Assembly: GCF_001418135.1 (NCBI RefSeq)
Contig: NZ_LIPQ01000096.1
Span: 1 to 42,853 of the forward strand
Direction: 5' to 3'
Origin: Streptomyces aureus
Lineage (GTDB): Bacteria; Actinomycetota; Actinomycetes; Streptomycetales; Streptomycetaceae
Length of the DNA stretch: 42,853 nucleotides
Below are positions 13,775-18,985 of this stretch, piece by piece. The stretch's first letter is position 1, and each line of letters opens with the position of its first letter. Both the position numbers and the translations under genes were made by a program. Below the pieces are notes generated by a model. It saw only the letters and a list, made by a program, of their open reading frames with translations, did no database searches and had not been told where the DNA came from.

Positions 13775-13856
13775 GGCGATGTGCCCGAGTGGCCAATGGG
13801 AGCGGACTGTAAATCCGTCGGCTTAGCCTACCCAGGTTCGAATCCTGGCGTCGCCA
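13775..13856 (+). tRNA. tRNA-Tyr (GTA)
   Basis: An 82-base class II tRNA. Acceptor GGCGATG pairs with CGTCGCC, the discriminator is A, the anticodon is GTA in CTGTAAA, there is a long variable arm, and the T-arm is CCAGG-TTCGAAT-CCTGG. CCA is not encoded. A possible -10 (TATTGT, 13714-13719) lies upstream beside a small GGGTGG/CCACCC hairpin (13686-13701), without a clear -35. The 3' part (from 13805) is repeated exactly at 18929-18985, so this gene is the integration target of the island. The left copy is the complete, functional one. Confidence 0.95.
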
Positions 13857-13861
13857 CGCGA
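13805..13861 (+). repeat. attL: left 57-bp direct repeat (tRNA-Tyr 3' end)
   Basis: 57 bases identical to 18929-18985, from the anticodon stem through the tRNA 3' end plus five bases. Integration of a tyrosine-recombinase element rebuilds the tRNA with the element's copy. Consistent with this, the tRNA is complete on this side and the integrase remnant lies about 200 bases inside. Confidence 0.9.
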
Positions 13862-13865
13862 TAAG

Positions 13866-13904
13866 AACGGCCCCTGATCTGCGGAAACGCGATCAGGGGC
13901 CGTT
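13866..13904 (+). terminator. Terminator hairpin after tRNA-Tyr (element-derived)
   Basis: A 14-bp perfect stem (AACGGCCCCTGATC with its complement at 13891-13904) around an 11-base loop, ending in TTT. It lies inside attL and differs from the hairpin at the right junction, so it was probably brought by the element. Confidence 0.8.
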
Positions 13905-14055
13905 TGCGTGTGTAAGTGAGACAAGGGGTCGACTGTCTCGCCCTGTACCGCCCGATCACCCTCTCTACCAGCGTGTCTGGACGGGCTGTGGACGGGAATC
14001 GAGCCCGCCGCGACCGGCTGAGACCGGGGCGCCGGTTAACGGCCGGCGGCGACGC

Positions 14056-14379
14056 TCACCGGTGCTGGTTCAGACGGGCGGAGATCTTGGCGTTCGCGGC
14101 CTCGTCGCCCCCCTTGAGGAACTTCGCGTACACGCGGAAGAGGACCCCCACGGAGTGCCCGGCTCGCGCGGCGACCAGCTGCGGCTCGACGCCGGAACTC
14201 AGCCACGTGGAGACGGCGGCGTGACGAAGGTCATACGGCCGCTTGGCGAGCCTCGTCTCCCGCTCGGCAGGGCTCAGGACGTCCTCACGGGCGCCCGCCC
14301 AGACCTCCCCGTAGCCGCTCTCCTGGACCATGCCGCCCCGGGCGGTCCGGAACAGCCGGCCGTCGGGCCACCAGGCCAT
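14056..14379 (-). pseudogene. Tyrosine recombinase (integrase), C-terminal fragment
   Basis: Only about 100 C-terminal residues of a site-specific integrase remain. Visible are the box II region RPYDLRHAAVSTWL, the AARAGHSVGVLFRVYAKFL region with the GH motif and a candidate nucleophilic Tyr, and the upstream PDGRLFRTARGG strand. The N-terminal DNA-binding domain and the first catalytic Arg (about 280 residues) are missing: upstream the frame loses similarity before residue 5 and meets a stop at 14464-14466. It reads toward attL, 195 bases away, as integrases of tRNA-borne elements usually do. Non-functional. Confidence 0.85.
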
Positions 14380-14477
14380 ACATGGGTCGCAGCACGGTTG
14401 CAGCAGGACGCGGAGGCCTCGGACCGGTTCCGGGGTCTTCTGCGTGTAGATAGCAGCGAGGCGTTACGGTTCGGCGC

Positions 14478-14771
14478 ATGGGGATTCCAAGGTGGGCCGG
14501 TCGCGCGACGGCCGCAGTGGTCGTGGCCGGGGCGTTGATCATTCGGCGTATGCTCCAGGATGCTGCGGCGCAGTCAGAGACCACCTCAGACTCCGGGTAC
14601 GACTGGTCCCAGAACGAGACCAATTGGCACTGGCGTTGCGAGTGCGGCGCCAAGTCTCGTGGCGGCGACATCAAGGCTGAGACGGAGTACAACGCCCAGC
14701 GGCACCAGTGGCGCAAGTGGAGCGCAGGTACGGGGCACCCGATGCCTGAGGTCTATCAGAAACCCTTGTAG
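14478..14771 (+). CDS. Small predicted membrane-anchored protein, unknown
   Basis: 97 residues. One N-terminal hydrophobic helix (about 9-24) after a basic start suggests a signal anchor. The remainder has WHWRCECGAKSRGGD followed by an acidic/aromatic helix with NAQRHQWRKW. The lone CxC pair is insufficient for a classical zinc ribbon. It starts with ATG without a strong Shine-Dalgarno; TACGGT seven bases upstream could be a -10 of a leaderless message. It lies divergent to the integrase remnant. Function not recognised. Confidence 0.5.
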   Translation: MGIPRWAGRATAAVVVAGALIIRRMLQDAAAQSETTSDSGYDWSQNETNWHWRCECGAKSRGGDIKAETEYNAQRHQWRKWSAGTGHPMPEVYQKPL

Positions 14772-14978
14772 ATCGTAGCCGCTAGGGGCTGTCGACGGGC
14801 AACGCTGGAGGCGCTGTTACCGAAGGGGACGAGGGCGGCGCGGTCTCGGTTGCGGTCTCGCTTGCCACCCGTTCCGGGGCTGTCCGCTCGTGTCCACCGG
14901 GGCTTGACAACCCTCGTGACGGTCCGCGGAGCCGACTCCGCAGACGCTCGCGGACGCCCCCGGACCAAGATCGGACAA

Positions 14979-15020
14979 TTCGTAATGCGTAGGTCTCGGG
15001 TTCGAATCCCGAAGGCGGCT
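14979..15020 (+). pseudogene. 3' fragment of tRNA-Thr (CGT)
   Basis: 42 bases corresponding to the anticodon loop (TTCGTAA, anticodon CGT), its 3' stem, the variable loop, T-arm (TCGGG-TTCGAAT-CCCGA) and 3' acceptor strand (AGGCGGC plus T). No matching 5' half lies upstream, so it cannot fold as a tRNA. A T-arm-to-3'-end fragment is what integrase-mediated elements leave as an attachment core, so this looks like the att scar of a different element. Confidence 0.75.
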
Positions 15021-15024
15021 AAGA

Positions 15025-15061
15025 AAAAGGCCGGGCCGGGCGATGTCCGACCTGGCCTTTT
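15025..15061 (+). terminator. Hairpin after the tRNA-Thr fragment
   Basis: AAAAGGCCGGG pairs with CCTGGCCTTTT (one G-T wobble), with additional internal pairing and a T run. It has the form and position of a tRNA terminator, five bases after the fragment, so it travelled with it. Confidence 0.65.
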
Positions 15062-15100
15062 CTGTTGCGCGGAGGGGTGAAGGCCCGAAGGCCTGGCTGC

Positions 15101-15150
15101 CCGAGCCCAGCTACCCGACCCGGGCGCCCGGGTCGGGTAGCTGGGCTCGG
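15101..15150. repeat. Perfect 50-bp palindrome
   Basis: The two 25-base halves are exact reverse complements with no spacer (left half begins CCGAGCCCAGCTACCC, centre CGGGCGCCCG). It sits between the tRNA-Thr fragment and the 3' end of a minus-strand gene. As RNA it would give a very stable hairpin; as DNA it could extrude a cruciform. There is no T run on either side, so a bidirectional Streptomyces-type terminator, a recombination/replication structure, or a protein site are all possible. Confidence 0.9.
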
Positions 15151-15215
15151 TGCCTGCGGTCGGGTGCCCCGGGCGGTCGGGGTCAGTGGGTGAGGCCCGG
15201 CAGACTGATGGAGGG

Positions 15216-15854
15216 TTAGCGGGATGGTGACGCCGACGAATCCCCAGAGACGCCGTCACGACTGCTGTCTGCAGAGTCTTCGGAGACCGCGACCGCCTCG
15301 CCTCGTCGCATCGTGCCATTGACCCGCTCTTCCCCCTCCCCCGTGATGAGTCGGCGCATCCACCATCGAGCGAACTCGCTTCGGGAAACGAGGCGCAGGC
15401 CGATGGTCATGTACGGGATCAGGAAGACCGGGGCGAAGGCACCGATCAGCAGCATGACGAAGCCGACACCAGCAATTTGAGTTACTTGCTTGGCCAGGTC
15501 CGGGGATGGGAGCCGTTCGGTGGTGGCCAGCCAACGAATCAAACTGACCTCTGCCCAAACGTGCAACACGGCCAAAACGCCCCATGCCAGACCGAAGCAC
15601 ACCTCAAGAAACCTTGCGAACGGAATTTGCCGAACCGGCCGCCTCCGGGGAGGATCTTCGTGATCCGGACTCTCGGTGCCATTATTGGTGATTCGAGCCA
15701 GCGCTGTTCTGACCTCGTGGTCGACTGTCGGCCCTTTGGTGGCAACGAAGACGTTCGAGAGCTTCGTCGCCTCAGCCCAACCAAGCAGCAAGATGATGGG
15801 GATGACTGTCACCATTGCTGAGGCGAACTCTTCGGTCATCTCATAAGTGTTCAT
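15216..15854 (-). CDS. Predicted membrane protein of the island, unknown
   Basis: 212 residues from ATG 15854 (MNTYEMTEEF); an in-frame ATG at 15866 is an alternative. Three hydrophobic segments are visible: near residues 10-27 (AMVTVIPIILLLGWAEA), 80-100 (FLEVCFGLAWGVLAVLHVW) and 122-150 (QVTQIAGVGFVMLLIGAFAPVFLIPYMTIGL). A charged linker follows the first, and the C-terminal tail is Ser/Asp/Glu-rich and cytoplasmic-looking. Codon use is relaxed relative to the chromosome, supporting transfer. No family recognised. The 3' end is followed by the 50-bp palindrome. Confidence 0.6.
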   Translation of the reverse strand: MNTYEMTEEFASAMVTVIPIILLLGWAEATKLSNVFVATKGPTVDHEVRTALARITNNGTESPDHEDPPRRRPVRQIPFARFLEVCFGLAWGVLAVLHVWAEVSLIRWLATTERLPSPDLAKQVTQIAGVGFVMLLIGAFAPVFLIPYMTIGLRLVSRSEFARWWMRRLITGEGEERVNGTMRRGEAVAVSEDSADSSRDGVSGDSSASPSR

Positions 15855-16058
15855 CACGCCCCCCATGAACTCGGCTGCCCCATCAGGAAGGTAGCGGATG
15901 CTCCGCAGCGACTCGCCGATGGGCGTGCTTGTTTCTTGAGATGCCCCAGAGTCTGTAGCCGGCCGCGCGGGACAGCACCCGCCGCCGAGCAACACTGAAC
16001 AGCCGAGTAAGTGCTGGTAGAGACCCCGGCCATCGCGGTGGTGGCCCCTGACGCCTGA

Positions 16059-16475
16059 TCACCACAGGAGGGATGGAACCTGTTGTGTCAGGTCTGCCTC
16101 GCCAAGACTGTCAGCCATCTCCTGGGCTTCGCGAAGTCGCTGCTCTACGGGGCCCCAGTCGTCCTCGTAGCGCCTGAAGATCAATGCAGACGAGGGCCTA
16201 CGCACATAACGATCGCCGCGTCGGGCGCCGAACCAAAATTCGATGGTGGCTGTCAGGCCGAGCGCGTCCGGGATGATGGCGAGACCCACCAGGCGTGTTA
16301 TTGGGTCATCGTCCGGCCCGGTGCTGTATGACCATTCAAGGGCCCCATGACGATCGCCTCCACGGTTGATCGTCCTGTAGCGGGACCGATCGGGTACCTT
16401 GCCGTACTGCATGTGCGGAGCGGCAAAATCAAACCAGTCCTCGAATATGTGTTCCCTGGCGGATCCATCGGTCAT
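16059..16475 (-). CDS. Unknown island protein, second gene of a coupled pair
   Basis: 138 residues from ATG 16475 (MTDGSAREHIFEDWFDFAAPHMQ). The start overlaps the stop of the upstream gene (ATGA), so the two are translationally coupled and probably act together. Soluble, rich in aromatic and charged residues (EFWFGARRGDRYVRR, FRRYEDDWGPVEQRLREAQEMAD), with a C-terminal amphipathic helix. No motif is recognised. Pair architecture and mobile context would fit a toxin-antitoxin, immunity or defence module, but nothing in the sequence demonstrates this. Confidence 0.6.
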   Translation of the reverse strand: MTDGSAREHIFEDWFDFAAPHMQYGKVPDRSRYRTINRGGDRHGALEWSYSTGPDDDPITRLVGLAIIPDALGLTATIEFWFGARRGDRYVRRPSSALIFRRYEDDWGPVEQRLREAQEMADSLGEADLTQQVPSLLW

Positions 16476-16900
16476 GCCAGCACGACCTCCCACTTGGACA
16501 GAATCGACTTGGGTTCGAACCCTGCCAGAAGAATGTATTCGATCCCCAGTCCCCACCAAATAAATCGCGGCCCAGCCACGGTCTCCAGCGAGCGAGGGTC
16601 CAAGACGAGGGCGAAGGGTCTCTCTAGGGCAACACCTGGCAGCTCCAGATTGCTGATGACCTGGTCAGGCGGATAGGGCGTCGGCGTGGTGTAGATCTCT
16701 CGCGTGGTCCCGAGCCGGAACGTCGACAGGTCGGTCAGACTGCAGTACCGAAGAAGCACCCGACCGCCCAGCTCCCGCCCGATCTCATCCCCATTGCGAA
16801 CTGGTAGGTCCTCGATTGGCGTATCGGGCGGCGCTATGTTGCGATGCCCGATCATCTGGGCGTCGATGTTGGTCGCCAGCAGGCTGACATGTATACCCAT
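16472..16900 (-). CDS. Unknown island protein, first gene of a coupled pair
   Basis: 142 residues from ATG 16900, which has a very strong GGAGGAGGG ribosome-binding site. MGIHVSLLATNIDAQMIGHR opens with a beta-strand-like segment. The rest is mixed alpha/beta with no membrane segment beyond a short hydrophobic patch (FIWWGLGIEYILLAGF). The downstream gene overlaps it by four bases. No family recognised. GC and third positions are lower than in the flanking chromosome. Confidence 0.62.
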   Translation of the reverse strand: MGIHVSLLATNIDAQMIGHRNIAPPDTPIEDLPVRNGDEIGRELGGRVLLRYCSLTDLSTFRLGTTREIYTTPTPYPPDQVISNLELPGVALERPFALVLDPRSLETVAGPRFIWWGLGIEYILLAGFEPKSILSKWEVVLA

Positions 16901-17176
16901 GCGATCACCCTCCTCCTCCAGCGTTGCAGTGGCTGCAGATGATCGCATTCTGGCTCAGAACTCCCTCCACAACGCGGTGTGCCGACTGGCGGCTTCATGG
17001 TCACGCCGTCCGGGGCGGCGGCCGGCCGTGGGCAGCGTCAGGCCCTCGCCAGCATCACTCGTTGTCCTGGTCTTTGTCCTGTGCGCTGGTGGACGCCAGG
17101 GTTCATCGCCGTCCGTGCACTCGGCTGAGCCGTTACGAGAACGGTGGTGAACGCCCGCGAACAGCCACGCGGACAG

Positions 17177-17232
17177 TTGGAAAGCGTGTTGGGAGCAACC
17201 CCTCACGAGTTCGAATCTCGTATCCTCCGCCA
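17177..17232 (+). pseudogene. 3' fragment of tRNA-Ser (GGA)
   Basis: 56 bases: anticodon loop TTGGAAA (anticodon GGA), 3' anticodon stem GCGTG, a class II variable arm (TTGGGAGCAACCCC), T-arm ACGAG-TTCGAAT-CTCGT, acceptor strand ATCCTCC and G-CCA. The bases upstream do not complete the anticodon stem (CACGC would be expected) and no D-arm or 5' acceptor is present. It is thus a 3' tRNA fragment of the type used as an integration core, from a tRNA other than tRNA-Tyr. Confidence 0.8.
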
Positions 17233-17235
17233 GCT

Positions 17236-17271
17236 CGAAGGGCCGGACCGCGAAGGCGGCCCGGCCCTTCG
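17236..17271 (+). terminator. Hairpin after the tRNA-Ser fragment
   Basis: CGAAGGGCCGG at 17236-17246 pairs perfectly with CCGGCCCTTCG at 17261-17271 across a 14-base loop. It is placed four bases after the fragment's CCA, as a tRNA terminator would be. Confidence 0.7.
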
Positions 17272-17573
17272 TCGCTTCCGGACCAAACACGCGTGCCCGC
17301 TTTCCGTAGAGAGGGACGTCGCCGCCGTGCTTGCACGCGGCCAGCGGCGGCGGCCCCTCACGCGGCAGCCCTCCCCACCCACTCGCGCGCTCTGAATTCA
17401 CGCACCCAAACCGATGACATCCCTCACGCTTCGGCCCCTCGCCGCCCCTCTGACCTGACCTTTCCCCTCCCTCCGCTTCCCGCCCAAGTAGCGGCAGCGG
17501 TACGAGTAGCCCGCTGCTTAATGTCCATGAAGCTCCTAGTCGGCGAAGGTTGGGGAACGTTCAGGAAGCAGGC

Positions 17574-18317
17574 CTAGGGAGACCCGGGTGAGCTGAAGAG
17601 TCGTTCCTTGTGGATCCAGTACGTGTTGCGCAGGCGGGTGTAGTCGAAGTCGCCGCCCTGTGGAGTCCGCCCTACGGTCAGTAGCTTGTGTCGTTCGAGT
17701 TCCTTCCTTCCCTGGGTCCAGGTGTTGTGGGAGACGCCGTACGCTTCGCGCCTCTCCTTCGGAACATACCGGGGCCGGTCGTACCCGCCCTGAGATTCGA
17801 GGAGGATGAGTAGTAGGGCAATTGCTGTGGGGCCAAGCTCCACAATCCACCCCCGGCTCCAGAACTCGGTCGGGACACTGATGTAGCGTGCCAGGGCGCT
17901 CGCTCGCGAGTAGGGGAGGGCCGGCATATCGAGTGAAAGCATCTGAATCATGGGCGTATTGCCCTGTCGAGGCTTCAACTCAATGAACTTGTTCGCGGCC
18001 AACCACTTGAGATTGCTGTTGATTCGCCGGGGGCCGGTCTCAGAGGGCAGGGCGAGCATTCGGGACCAGAGCTGCGGTGTGGGCGGCCTCCGAATGTCGT
18101 GCGGTTCCGCAGTGGCCATCATCGTGATGCACAGATAGAGCTTGAGCCGTACTTCACCCCCGCGACCGCCTTGGATGAGCCGAGCCAGCGGTGGGGCGCC
18201 TGCGCCCTCCCTCGCCCTTACGAAGGAGGGCCAGAAGGGCACCTGGGTGCGTCGTGCAGCGGTGGTTACTGCCTTGTCCAGGAGCGTGACGGCAGACGGG
18301 AACAGGGGGTTCGGCAA
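17574..18317 (-). CDS. Probable winged-helix DNA-binding protein of the element, unknown
   Basis: 247 residues from TTG 18317, with AAAGG about 10 bases upstream. Two segments look like winged-helix units: GPRRINSNLKWLAANKFIELKPRQGNTPMIQML, and RREAYGVSHNTWTQGRKELERHKLLTVGRTPQGGDFDYTRLRNTYW with turn and wing. A hydrophobic helix (ELGPTAIALLLILLES) lies between. This layout fits a plasmid-type replication or copy-control protein, or a transcription regulator, but no specific family is recognised. The start region overlaps an inverted repeat (18327-18339) that may be its own operator. Confidence 0.62.
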   Translation of the reverse strand: MPNPLFPSAVTLLDKAVTTAARRTQVPFWPSFVRAREGAGAPPLARLIQGGRGGEVRLKLYLCITMMATAEPHDIRRPPTPQLWSRMLALPSETGPRRINSNLKWLAANKFIELKPRQGNTPMIQMLSLDMPALPYSRASALARYISVPTEFWSRGWIVELGPTAIALLLILLESQGGYDRPRYVPKERREAYGVSHNTWTQGRKELERHKLLTVGRTPQGGDFDYTRLRNTYWIHKERLFSSPGSP

Positions 18318-18326
18318 AACTCGTCG

Positions 18327-18503
18327 ACCTTTGCGAAGGAGAGACAGGCGGTACCAGGGGTACCAGGGGTCACGGGGGTACTAGTAGTCCTCTTCTTCCT
18401 TTCCTGCGCGAAGGGTTGGTCCTTCAATCGCATCGGTCATAGAGCTACTTCACGGCAGTCGTGCGTGTCCAGCAGGAGCGCTTAGTGACACCTTCGCAAA
18501 GGT
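18327..18503. promoter_or_regulatory. Paired inverted 13-mers and tandem 9-mers, candidate operator region
   Basis: ACCTTTGCGAAGG at 18327-18339 recurs in exact reverse complement at 18491-18503. The second copy is embedded in a larger dyad, ACACCTT-CGCA-AAGGTGT (18489-18506). Between them are two tandem copies of GTACCAGGG (18351-18368). The first copy covers the Shine-Dalgarno of the minus-strand gene. The arrangement fits a regulator binding two sites in the divergent region between 17574-18317 and 18616-18834. Confidence 0.5.
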
Positions 18504-18615
18504 GTATCCATTGCTTTGACCTGCGGTTTTGTGTCTGGCACGGTCGTCGTTGTGATCCCGATGGTCGTCGGGAGACCGTGCGAGCCTGGCGCGCAAACGC
18601 CAGGGAGGAGGGCAA

Positions 18616-18834
18616 GTGAGCTCAACTACCGCTTCGCAGCATGGGGTTTGGCTGGCCGTCATCATGCTCAGCAGCGTGTGTGCGGCGGTTGCTGCGGGAG
18701 TGCTCTTCTACGCGCTCGGCGCCGAGCCGACAGGAGTCGTCGCAGGGGCGGGTGGAGCCTTCGTGGCCACAGCGACGTTGGGGATGGCGGCGTATCGCTT
18801 CATGAATGAGCGGCCTGACACTGAAAGTTCATGA
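18616..18834 (+). CDS. Small two-helix membrane protein, unknown
   Basis: 72 residues from GTG 18616 with a strong GGAGGAGGG about 4 bases upstream. Two hydrophobic segments (about 11-33, VWLAVIMLSSVCAAVAAGVLF, and 39-60, GVVAGAGGAFVATATLGMAA) are followed by a short charged tail. Small two-helix proteins of this kind are common in Streptomyces integrative elements, but no spread-protein or holin signature is evident. It is the last gene before attR. Confidence 0.6.
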   Translation: MSSTTASQHGVWLAVIMLSSVCAAVAAGVLFYALGAEPTGVVAGAGGAFVATATLGMAAYRFMNERPDTESS

Positions 18835-18928
18835 GCGCTGGACGAGGCGCGGACGACTGCTTCGCCTATGTGAGAACTGGCGCGCTTCGTCGCATGTCAG
18901 CGGCACTCCTGAGTGGCAGAAGCCAGAA

Positions 18929-18985
18929 GACTGTAAATCCGTCGGCTTAGCCTACCCAGGTTCGAATCCTGGCGTCGCCACGCGA
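18929..18985 (+). repeat. attR: right 57-bp direct repeat (tRNA-Tyr 3' end)
   Basis: Identical to 13805-13861. Upstream of the identity, GAGTGGC occurs at 18911-18917 with exactly the same 11-base spacing as in the intact tRNA D-arm (13787-13793), but the intervening bases have diverged. The 5' side is therefore an element-borne, degenerate tRNA-like attP sequence and not a second functional tRNA gene. Confidence 0.9.

Follow-up and report, generated by a model that had tools for sequence, protein, structure and literature searches.

The window analysed here is a stretch of 42,853 nucleotides from Streptomyces aureus (contig NZ_LIPQ01000096.1 of the draft assembly GCF_001418135.1; 7.9 Mb in 707 contigs, genome G000 in our numbering, in which genomes, contigs and loci are labelled G, C and L), and its subject is a 5-kb genomic island inserted at a tRNA-Tyr gene and harboring the 3′ ends of two other tRNAs, Thr(CGT) and Ser(GGA). 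At least three lineages of elements have almost certainly contributed to this composite island. It is best explained, in our judgment with fair probability, as a decayed, integrase-less composite residing in tRNA-Tyr and built of stacked modules that come from actinomycete integrative and conjugative elements (AICEs) of three specificities. An earlier sequence-only reading of this DNA had proposed that three or more elements, differing in their target tRNAs, left remnants here, and this proposal holds up, as every core adjoins the right end of an element of matching specificity. The island is dead, in the manner of a cis-mobilizable element (CIME), the concept of a remnant flanked by attachment (att) sites; as such it is confirmed and mostly explained.

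The tRNA-Tyr duplication that the sequence-only reading took to bound the island was found as a 57-base repeat at both ends (Table 1), and the flanking att cores lie at a tRNA 3′ end, as those of AICEs do. The far copy lies 2.2 kb before tRNA-Thr(GGT) and tRNA-Met, a distance that is 2.2–2.3 kb in five other genomes. Internal cores were sought with a library of 42 isoacceptors, each represented by its 3′ 46 nt, which was drawn from the window genome and others and lacks a few isoacceptors. Besides an exact Thr(CGT) match, this search returned Ser(GGA) at 17185–17230 (98%, E 2e-18) and the Tyr repeat at 18936–18981, and no other core was found in the island interior with this library; a 44-nt Ser pattern also matches the Ser site with one mismatch. 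Both internal cores run from the anticodon loop to the tRNA 3′ end, on the strand of tRNA-Tyr, and are followed by a hairpin, just as had been read from the letters, save that the Thr fragment starts at 14980 and not at 14979 (the Ser fragment, expected from 17177, is seen at 17177–17233). Words of 13 bases common to the tRNA library occur once in the island outside the known cores versus seven times in the remaining 34,253 bases of the window, and an Rfam scan of the island gave the tRNA and otherwise matches below the gathering scores of the families. Chance matches and random tRNA pseudogenes were considered and are ruled out by the exact or near-exact cores being joined to element arms. 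Since each is attached to the P arm of element right ends, the fragments are attachment cores, as had been supposed, and not random tRNA copies. Similarity ending at random points, which had been named in advance as contrary evidence, was not seen: the homology with most relatives ends at the core 3′ end.

A search of the island interior against 392 Streptomyces genomes (E 1e-30; matches in 83, the window genome included) divides it at sharp points, and the module boundaries fall at the cores. The segment 13870–14366 is the left end of Tyr elements, with 93–94% DNA identity to G162, whose integrase gene is complete. The window retains the C-terminal fifth of such a gene (PHROG integrase, 4.6e-09; Pfam Phage_integrase, 0.09, below the cut-off), and no other integrase was found in the island; none of its seven open reading frames (ORFs) was assigned by Pfam, PHROGs or NCBIfam to the excisionase, RepSA/RepAM/Prim-Pol or FtsK-type TraB families. 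In complete-looking elements the integrase lies about 500 bases or less from the core, and no integrase was found downstream of either internal core of the window. The Tyr integrase gene breaks off at 14366/14368, where it meets DNA that begins directly after a TGA in Thr AICEs; the two parents share a base or two at most. The DNA that follows, up to 15020, is identified as the right end of Thr(CGT)-specific AICEs because in four genomes (G134, G354, G132 and G027) another Thr core, with a full-length integrase adjoining it, lies 16.9–22.2 kb upstream. The homology ends exactly at the tRNA-Thr 3′ end in three of these four and continues through a similar hairpin in G027. Upstream of the window Thr core, 55 of 60 bases are identical to the Thr AICE of G134 and 43 of 60 to the AICE on contig C66 of the window genome itself.

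The Ser core and its arm (17058–17233) form a widespread Ser-element right end, most matches ending at the Ser 3′ end, and 17597–18927 corresponds to Tyr AICE right ends in G227, G286, G039 and G250 (65–68%). The AICE of G227 encodes an integrase, Prim-Pol, DUF3987 and a GntR-NUDIX protein, with an FtsK match just under the curated cut-off. No right end with the gene for the helix-turn-helix (HTH)-like protein was found in the Tyr element of G162 itself, so the two Tyr ends of the window may, on this comparison, stem from different Tyr elements. Neither Thr(CGT) nor Ser(GGA) cores were found in Tyr elements taken in full from G162, G268, G227, G286, G039, G250 and G185, or nearly in full from G383, G328 and G238. 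Module identities and boundaries are plain from these comparisons. Drawn as a circle, the island reads 97-aa ORF, P arm and Thr core; cargo, P arm and Ser core; HTH gene, P arm and Tyr core; and then the broken Tyr integrase. Three right-end modules thus stand consecutively in one orientation, each foreign core with its own P arm.

Table 1. Features of the tRNA-Tyr island, in window coordinates (aa, amino acids).
Feature	Position	Strand	Basis or similarity
Intact tRNA-Tyr(GTA), attL of the island	13775–13857	+	ARAGORN
Terminator-like hairpin 3′ of tRNA-Tyr, element side	13866–13906	+	sequence
C-terminal remnant of tRNA-Tyr-specific tyrosine integrase	14056–14366	-	residues ~391–490 of 491; tblastn 78% to G227 integrase
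Non-homologous junction, Tyr integrase gene fused to Thr AICE right end	14366–14368		flanks of both parents
Thr(CGT)-specific AICE right end, ending in Thr core	14368–15020	+	96/93/92/90% to G134, G354, G132, G027
97-aa ORF of Thr AICE right ends	14478–14771	+	protein identity 90–97% in L040–L043
Thr(CGT) att core	14980–15020	+	41/41 bases, 100%, E 8e-18 (isoacceptor search)
Terminator-like hairpin 3′ of Thr core (15025 on)	15021–15067	+	like the flank of G027 only, among the four Thr AICEs
Near-perfect palindrome, ~23-bp arms, just past Thr module	15104–15150		sequence; hairpin flagged by a chance match to miRNA models
Orphan cargo ORF, 259 aa	15216–15995	-	34–35% in 2 of 381 other genomes; 32–41% in 3 plasmids
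Cargo ORF, 166 aa	16059–16559	-	no family match
Cargo ORF, 158 aa	16472–16948	-	no family match or close relative
P arm of Ser(GGA)-specific element	17058–17176	+	arm + core 80–83% in L057, L211, L199, L198, L077, L205; 79% in L056, L072
Ser(GGA) att core	17177–17233	+	56/57, one mismatch; 98% over 57 bases from 17177
Terminator-like GGGCCGG-type hairpin 3′ of Ser core (17236 on)	17234–17280	+	same type after intact tRNA-Ser in L054, L055
HTH-like protein of Tyr AICE right ends, 247 aa	17574–18317	-	62–64% to L048–L051; Pfam HTH weak, 0.24
ORF of Tyr AICE right ends, 72 aa	18616–18834	+	60% in L048, 46% in L050
Tyr att core, attR	18929–18985	+	57 bases identical to attL copy 13805–13861

For the origin of the island we lean slightly towards a stacking route. 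AICEs of different specificity would have been fused, either as circular forms via a single crossover or by capture of a new integrase–attP module, and the new rightmost integrase would then have assumed control. Deletion would have removed the older integrases and the shared backbone, one such non-homologous junction presumably being that at 14366/14368, and the old attachment sites would have been retained as fossils. The Tyr integrase would have been truncated afterwards, and the resulting CIME-like island could be mobilised, if at all, only by a related Tyr element acting from outside. Circle fusion or module capture followed by loss predicts that embedded sites share orientation and a right-end position, which random nesting does not. 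In the three att-bounded hosts, all five embedded sites are oriented as the host (Thr and Ser in the window, Ser in G106, Pro and a Gly half in G315), a result with a chance of 1/32 if orientations are random and independent, in a sample that is small and was counted post hoc. This shared orientation favours stacking, by fusion or integrase swap and subsequent deletion, over random nesting.

The pattern recurs in G315, on a 600-kb contig, where a complete-looking pSAM2-type AICE resides in tRNA-Ser(GGA) and encodes an integrase with both Pfam domains, RepSA, FtsK, GntR and NUDIX proteins. A Pro(CGG) core lies ~1.4 kb, and a Gly(CCC) arm with half-core ~0.7 kb, before its own Ser attR, so that in this only complete-looking host the embedded sites lie near the right end. 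The Gly arm leads into a Gly(CCC) core in G189 and G222, and G315 retains only the anticodon-loop part. By gene content and position, G315 would fit a stack in an otherwise complete element whose outermost core matches its integrase. Elsewhere, a Ser arm and core lie within a 4.2-kb tRNA-Cys island of G106 that also has an integrase fragment; in G325, Ser(TGA) and Ser(GGA) cores of like orientation are separated by 2.7 kb, and no tRNA gene lies in the stretch examined; and in G193 a full Pro core has the same orientation as two half-cores, one Pro and one Gly. For a survey, 59 regions, each lying between adjacent Thr or Ser cores, were picked by spacing, and a scan of these for half-cores (19-mers around the anticodon) gave two words in 713,124 bases, neither of which was judged to be in an att context.

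Several results weigh against a stacked composite. Foreign cores are rare, being present in only one of the 59 surveyed regions (that of G315), and the remaining examples were drawn from loci that had been chosen for odd cores. In G370 (contig C2, L263, 6830–10305), Ser(TGA), Arg(ACG) and Pro(CGG) cores occur within 3.5 kb in mixed orientation, and the 20-kb stretch lacks a tRNA gene. We found no intermediate leading to the window island, and a 24-mer spanning its junction had no exact match in contigs of 84,980 species, a set that possibly does not include its own genome. The 97-aa ORF also occurs in L044 (G301, 92%) and L058 (G224, 60%) with no Thr core nearby, and is therefore not exclusive to Thr AICEs. 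The hairpin behind the Ser core points the same way. When 84 distinct Ser sites were grouped according to hairpin type and to whether an integrase match lies in the next 2 kb downstream, the GGGCCGG type was seen at none of 13 intact tRNA-Ser genes with a following integrase versus 2 of 11 without; at core-only sites it was seen once with an integrase, five times without (the window included) and once where sequence was insufficient. Neither L054 nor L055, whose intact tRNA-Ser carries this hairpin type, is followed by an integrase. The comparison weakly favours taking the window Ser site as an integrated attR, a state that fusion of free circles does not explain. In the free AICE pCM32 (no literature naming pCM32 together with AICE was found) the attP order is arm, core, hairpin and integrase, and a special role for the combination of core and hairpin was rejected, since a hairpin also lies 3′ of the core at this attP and at many att sites.

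Of the other routes by which the island could have arisen, nested site-specific integration, in which Thr and Ser elements entered a Tyr element successively and deletions then removed their left halves and integrases, appears unlikely. Crossover in the anticodon loop is usual for this integrase class, and the target would then have needed to contain the 41-base and 57-base 3′ halves beforehand; the Thr and Ser cores were each found only once in the island, and the shared orientation is left unexplained. Nesting would nevertheless agree with the Ser hairpin type, which weakly points to attR, with the ectopic Ser array without a tRNA gene in G350 and the ectopic Tyr core with integrase in G268, and with the ability of tRNA remnants to act as integration sites, as indicated in passages of PMC3218068. 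The hairpin also bears on a capture of chromosomal attR sites, that is, the illegitimate end-joining of pieces of occupied tRNA-Thr and tRNA-Ser loci to a Tyr element. The GGGCCGG-type hairpin, together with a weak 56-bp match farther downstream to the tRNA-Ser flank of L054 (E 4e-4), and the junction without homology beyond a base or two, speak for it. However, the count of 84 sites weakened the case for a chromosomal Ser hairpin, in 271 loci no chromosomal flank of tRNA-Thr or tRNA-Ser was clearly recognised past the hairpins, and the route calls for two captures agreeing in orientation, which makes it improbable.

An assembly chimera, misjoined at repeated tRNA cores, has to be considered for a draft of 707 contigs that contains three Thr and three Ser cores, but we give it little credence: no repeat lies at the 14366/14368 junction, the window copies have flanks unlike those of the copies on C66 and C102 (on C66 itself the downstream flank is common to both copies), and similar composites exist in other genomes, including that on the 600-kb contig of G315. 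Least probable, to a degree that we hardly entertain it, is a single element with several working attP sites choosing among tRNA-Tyr, -Thr and -Ser, an alternative that the sequence-only reading had raised. The window genome does have a Thr integrase, and since the Thr arm is 55/60 like that of G134, such an integrase might still recognise the window Thr site. Yet the sole integrase in the island is a C-terminal fragment of Tyr specificity, so this copy cannot choose among targets, and every core is accompanied by DNA of a different element. A softer form of the idea survives, namely one lineage that would have switched its target successively while keeping the old sites, with G315 as the candidate case. 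Stacks in other strains may record past changes of docking site. That AICEs retain the old P arm and core at each change of integrase, so that some of them carry their former sites as an ordered series, and that such fossils, once embedded in new loci, serve as portable landing pads on which elements of the earlier specificity insert far from their tRNA gene, or as a route for switching back, we put forward tentatively, with more doubt than belief.

Compared with known systems, the island shares with AICEs of the pSAM2 and SLP1 types (PMC3218068) att sites at tRNA 3′ ends and an integrase gene beside attL. It differs from AICEs in having three specificities instead of one, and rep, tra and a complete int were not found in it. 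Like CIMEs and the defective AICEs treated in PMC9513070 it is flanked by att sites and lacks a working recombination module, and it differs from such remnants by att sites foreign to its own tRNA. Passages of PMC9513070 describe accretion at one tRNA, AICE decay that leaves repeats, and AICEs of the same family with swapped integrase and site, and passages of PMC3218068 describe two AICEs with att sites resembling tRNA remnants. As in tandem accretion at one tRNA (both sources), several element ends stand in a row in the same orientation, but accretion joins elements of the same specificity, whereas here Thr and Ser cores lie between Tyr ends. Swapping of integrase–attP modules, in which a family keeps its backbone while integrase and site change, resembles the proposed history, although those passages of PMC9513070 make no mention of old attP sites persisting as fossils. 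The Shewanella CGI48/GI21 pair is likewise an island in a tRNA gene containing an element of another target (PMC8978831), but there the inner element can excise. No description of stacked att sites of different tRNAs was found in the literature searched (titles, beginnings of abstracts and passages), and its absence from the literature is unproven. Integrase swapping is already known, and the order of swaps is usually lost. If stacking is real, a pile of old att modules would make the history of target switching readable from sequence and testable, the outermost core being expected to fit the present integrase and the inner cores earlier targets. Such a pile could also account for the spread of tRNA-derived integration sites to plasmids and ectopic loci, where they offer landing places to new elements.

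Intact tRNA-Thr(CGT) and tRNA-Ser(GGA) genes, which had been proposed as a check, were both located in the window genome, at C66:23950-24024 and C102:1880-1967. A second 3′ copy lies on the same contig in each case (C66:10989-11049, 13 kb off; C102:5813-5869, 3.9 kb off), so both genes are occupied by other elements. The one in tRNA-Thr(CGT) (C66:9000-28000, L008) is an AICE with integrase, Prim-Pol and FtsK genes. The flank after the second Thr copy resembles that after the first and looks like the left end of another element, which suggests accretion at tRNA-Thr. The window Thr site and this second copy have 20 extra bases upstream of the core in common (61 bases, 97%), which belong to the element arm and not to the tRNA 5′ half. 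On C102 (L009:1880-5869) lies a 3.9-kb decayed Ser(GGA) element, in which an insertion sequence-type transposase piece replaces the integrase N-terminus and a gene of the erythromycin esterase family lies alongside. Whether the fragments occupy the same place in strains without the island is answered in part, in that the 5-kb query was matched end to end only in its own genome among the 392.

For the cargo ORFs between the Thr and Ser cores PADLOC returned nothing, Pfam, PHROGs and NCBIfam gave weak matches or none, a scan of genome contigs gave no relative of the 158-aa ORF, and the island had no match in phage records. A link of the cargo to chromosomal flanks was tried and not found in the 271 loci, where the one match, of 55 bp, is in L064, the locus of a 35% relative. 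The interval 15021–15215 likewise gave a single 36-bp match in these loci, inside the palindrome region. The Thr and Ser cores are each overlapped by a long antisense ORF (14756–15319 and 16955–17401, minus strand) that could be mis-annotated as a protein.

Further tRNA-derived sites came to light in other strains. L166 (G185, C95:1-17000) is another small tRNA-Tyr island, of 4 kb, with a truncated Tyr integrase, and in L046 (G268, C1:7380300-7400200) a Tyr core with a complete Tyr integrase lies far from tRNA-Tyr, a second left-end copy being present at the tRNA gene. G350 has three Ser(GGA) cores in a row (C1:7125434-7134570, L068) with no tRNA gene in ~80 kb around and the intact tRNA-Ser 1.9 Mb off, and also an ectopic Ser element, L067 (C1:10863800-10883700), whose Ser core and full integrase lie 3.4 kb from tRNA-Pro(TGG). 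Thr or Ser cores are carried as well by large linear Streptomyces plasmids (L150, L151 and L152), in 24-kb stretches that contain no tRNA gene.

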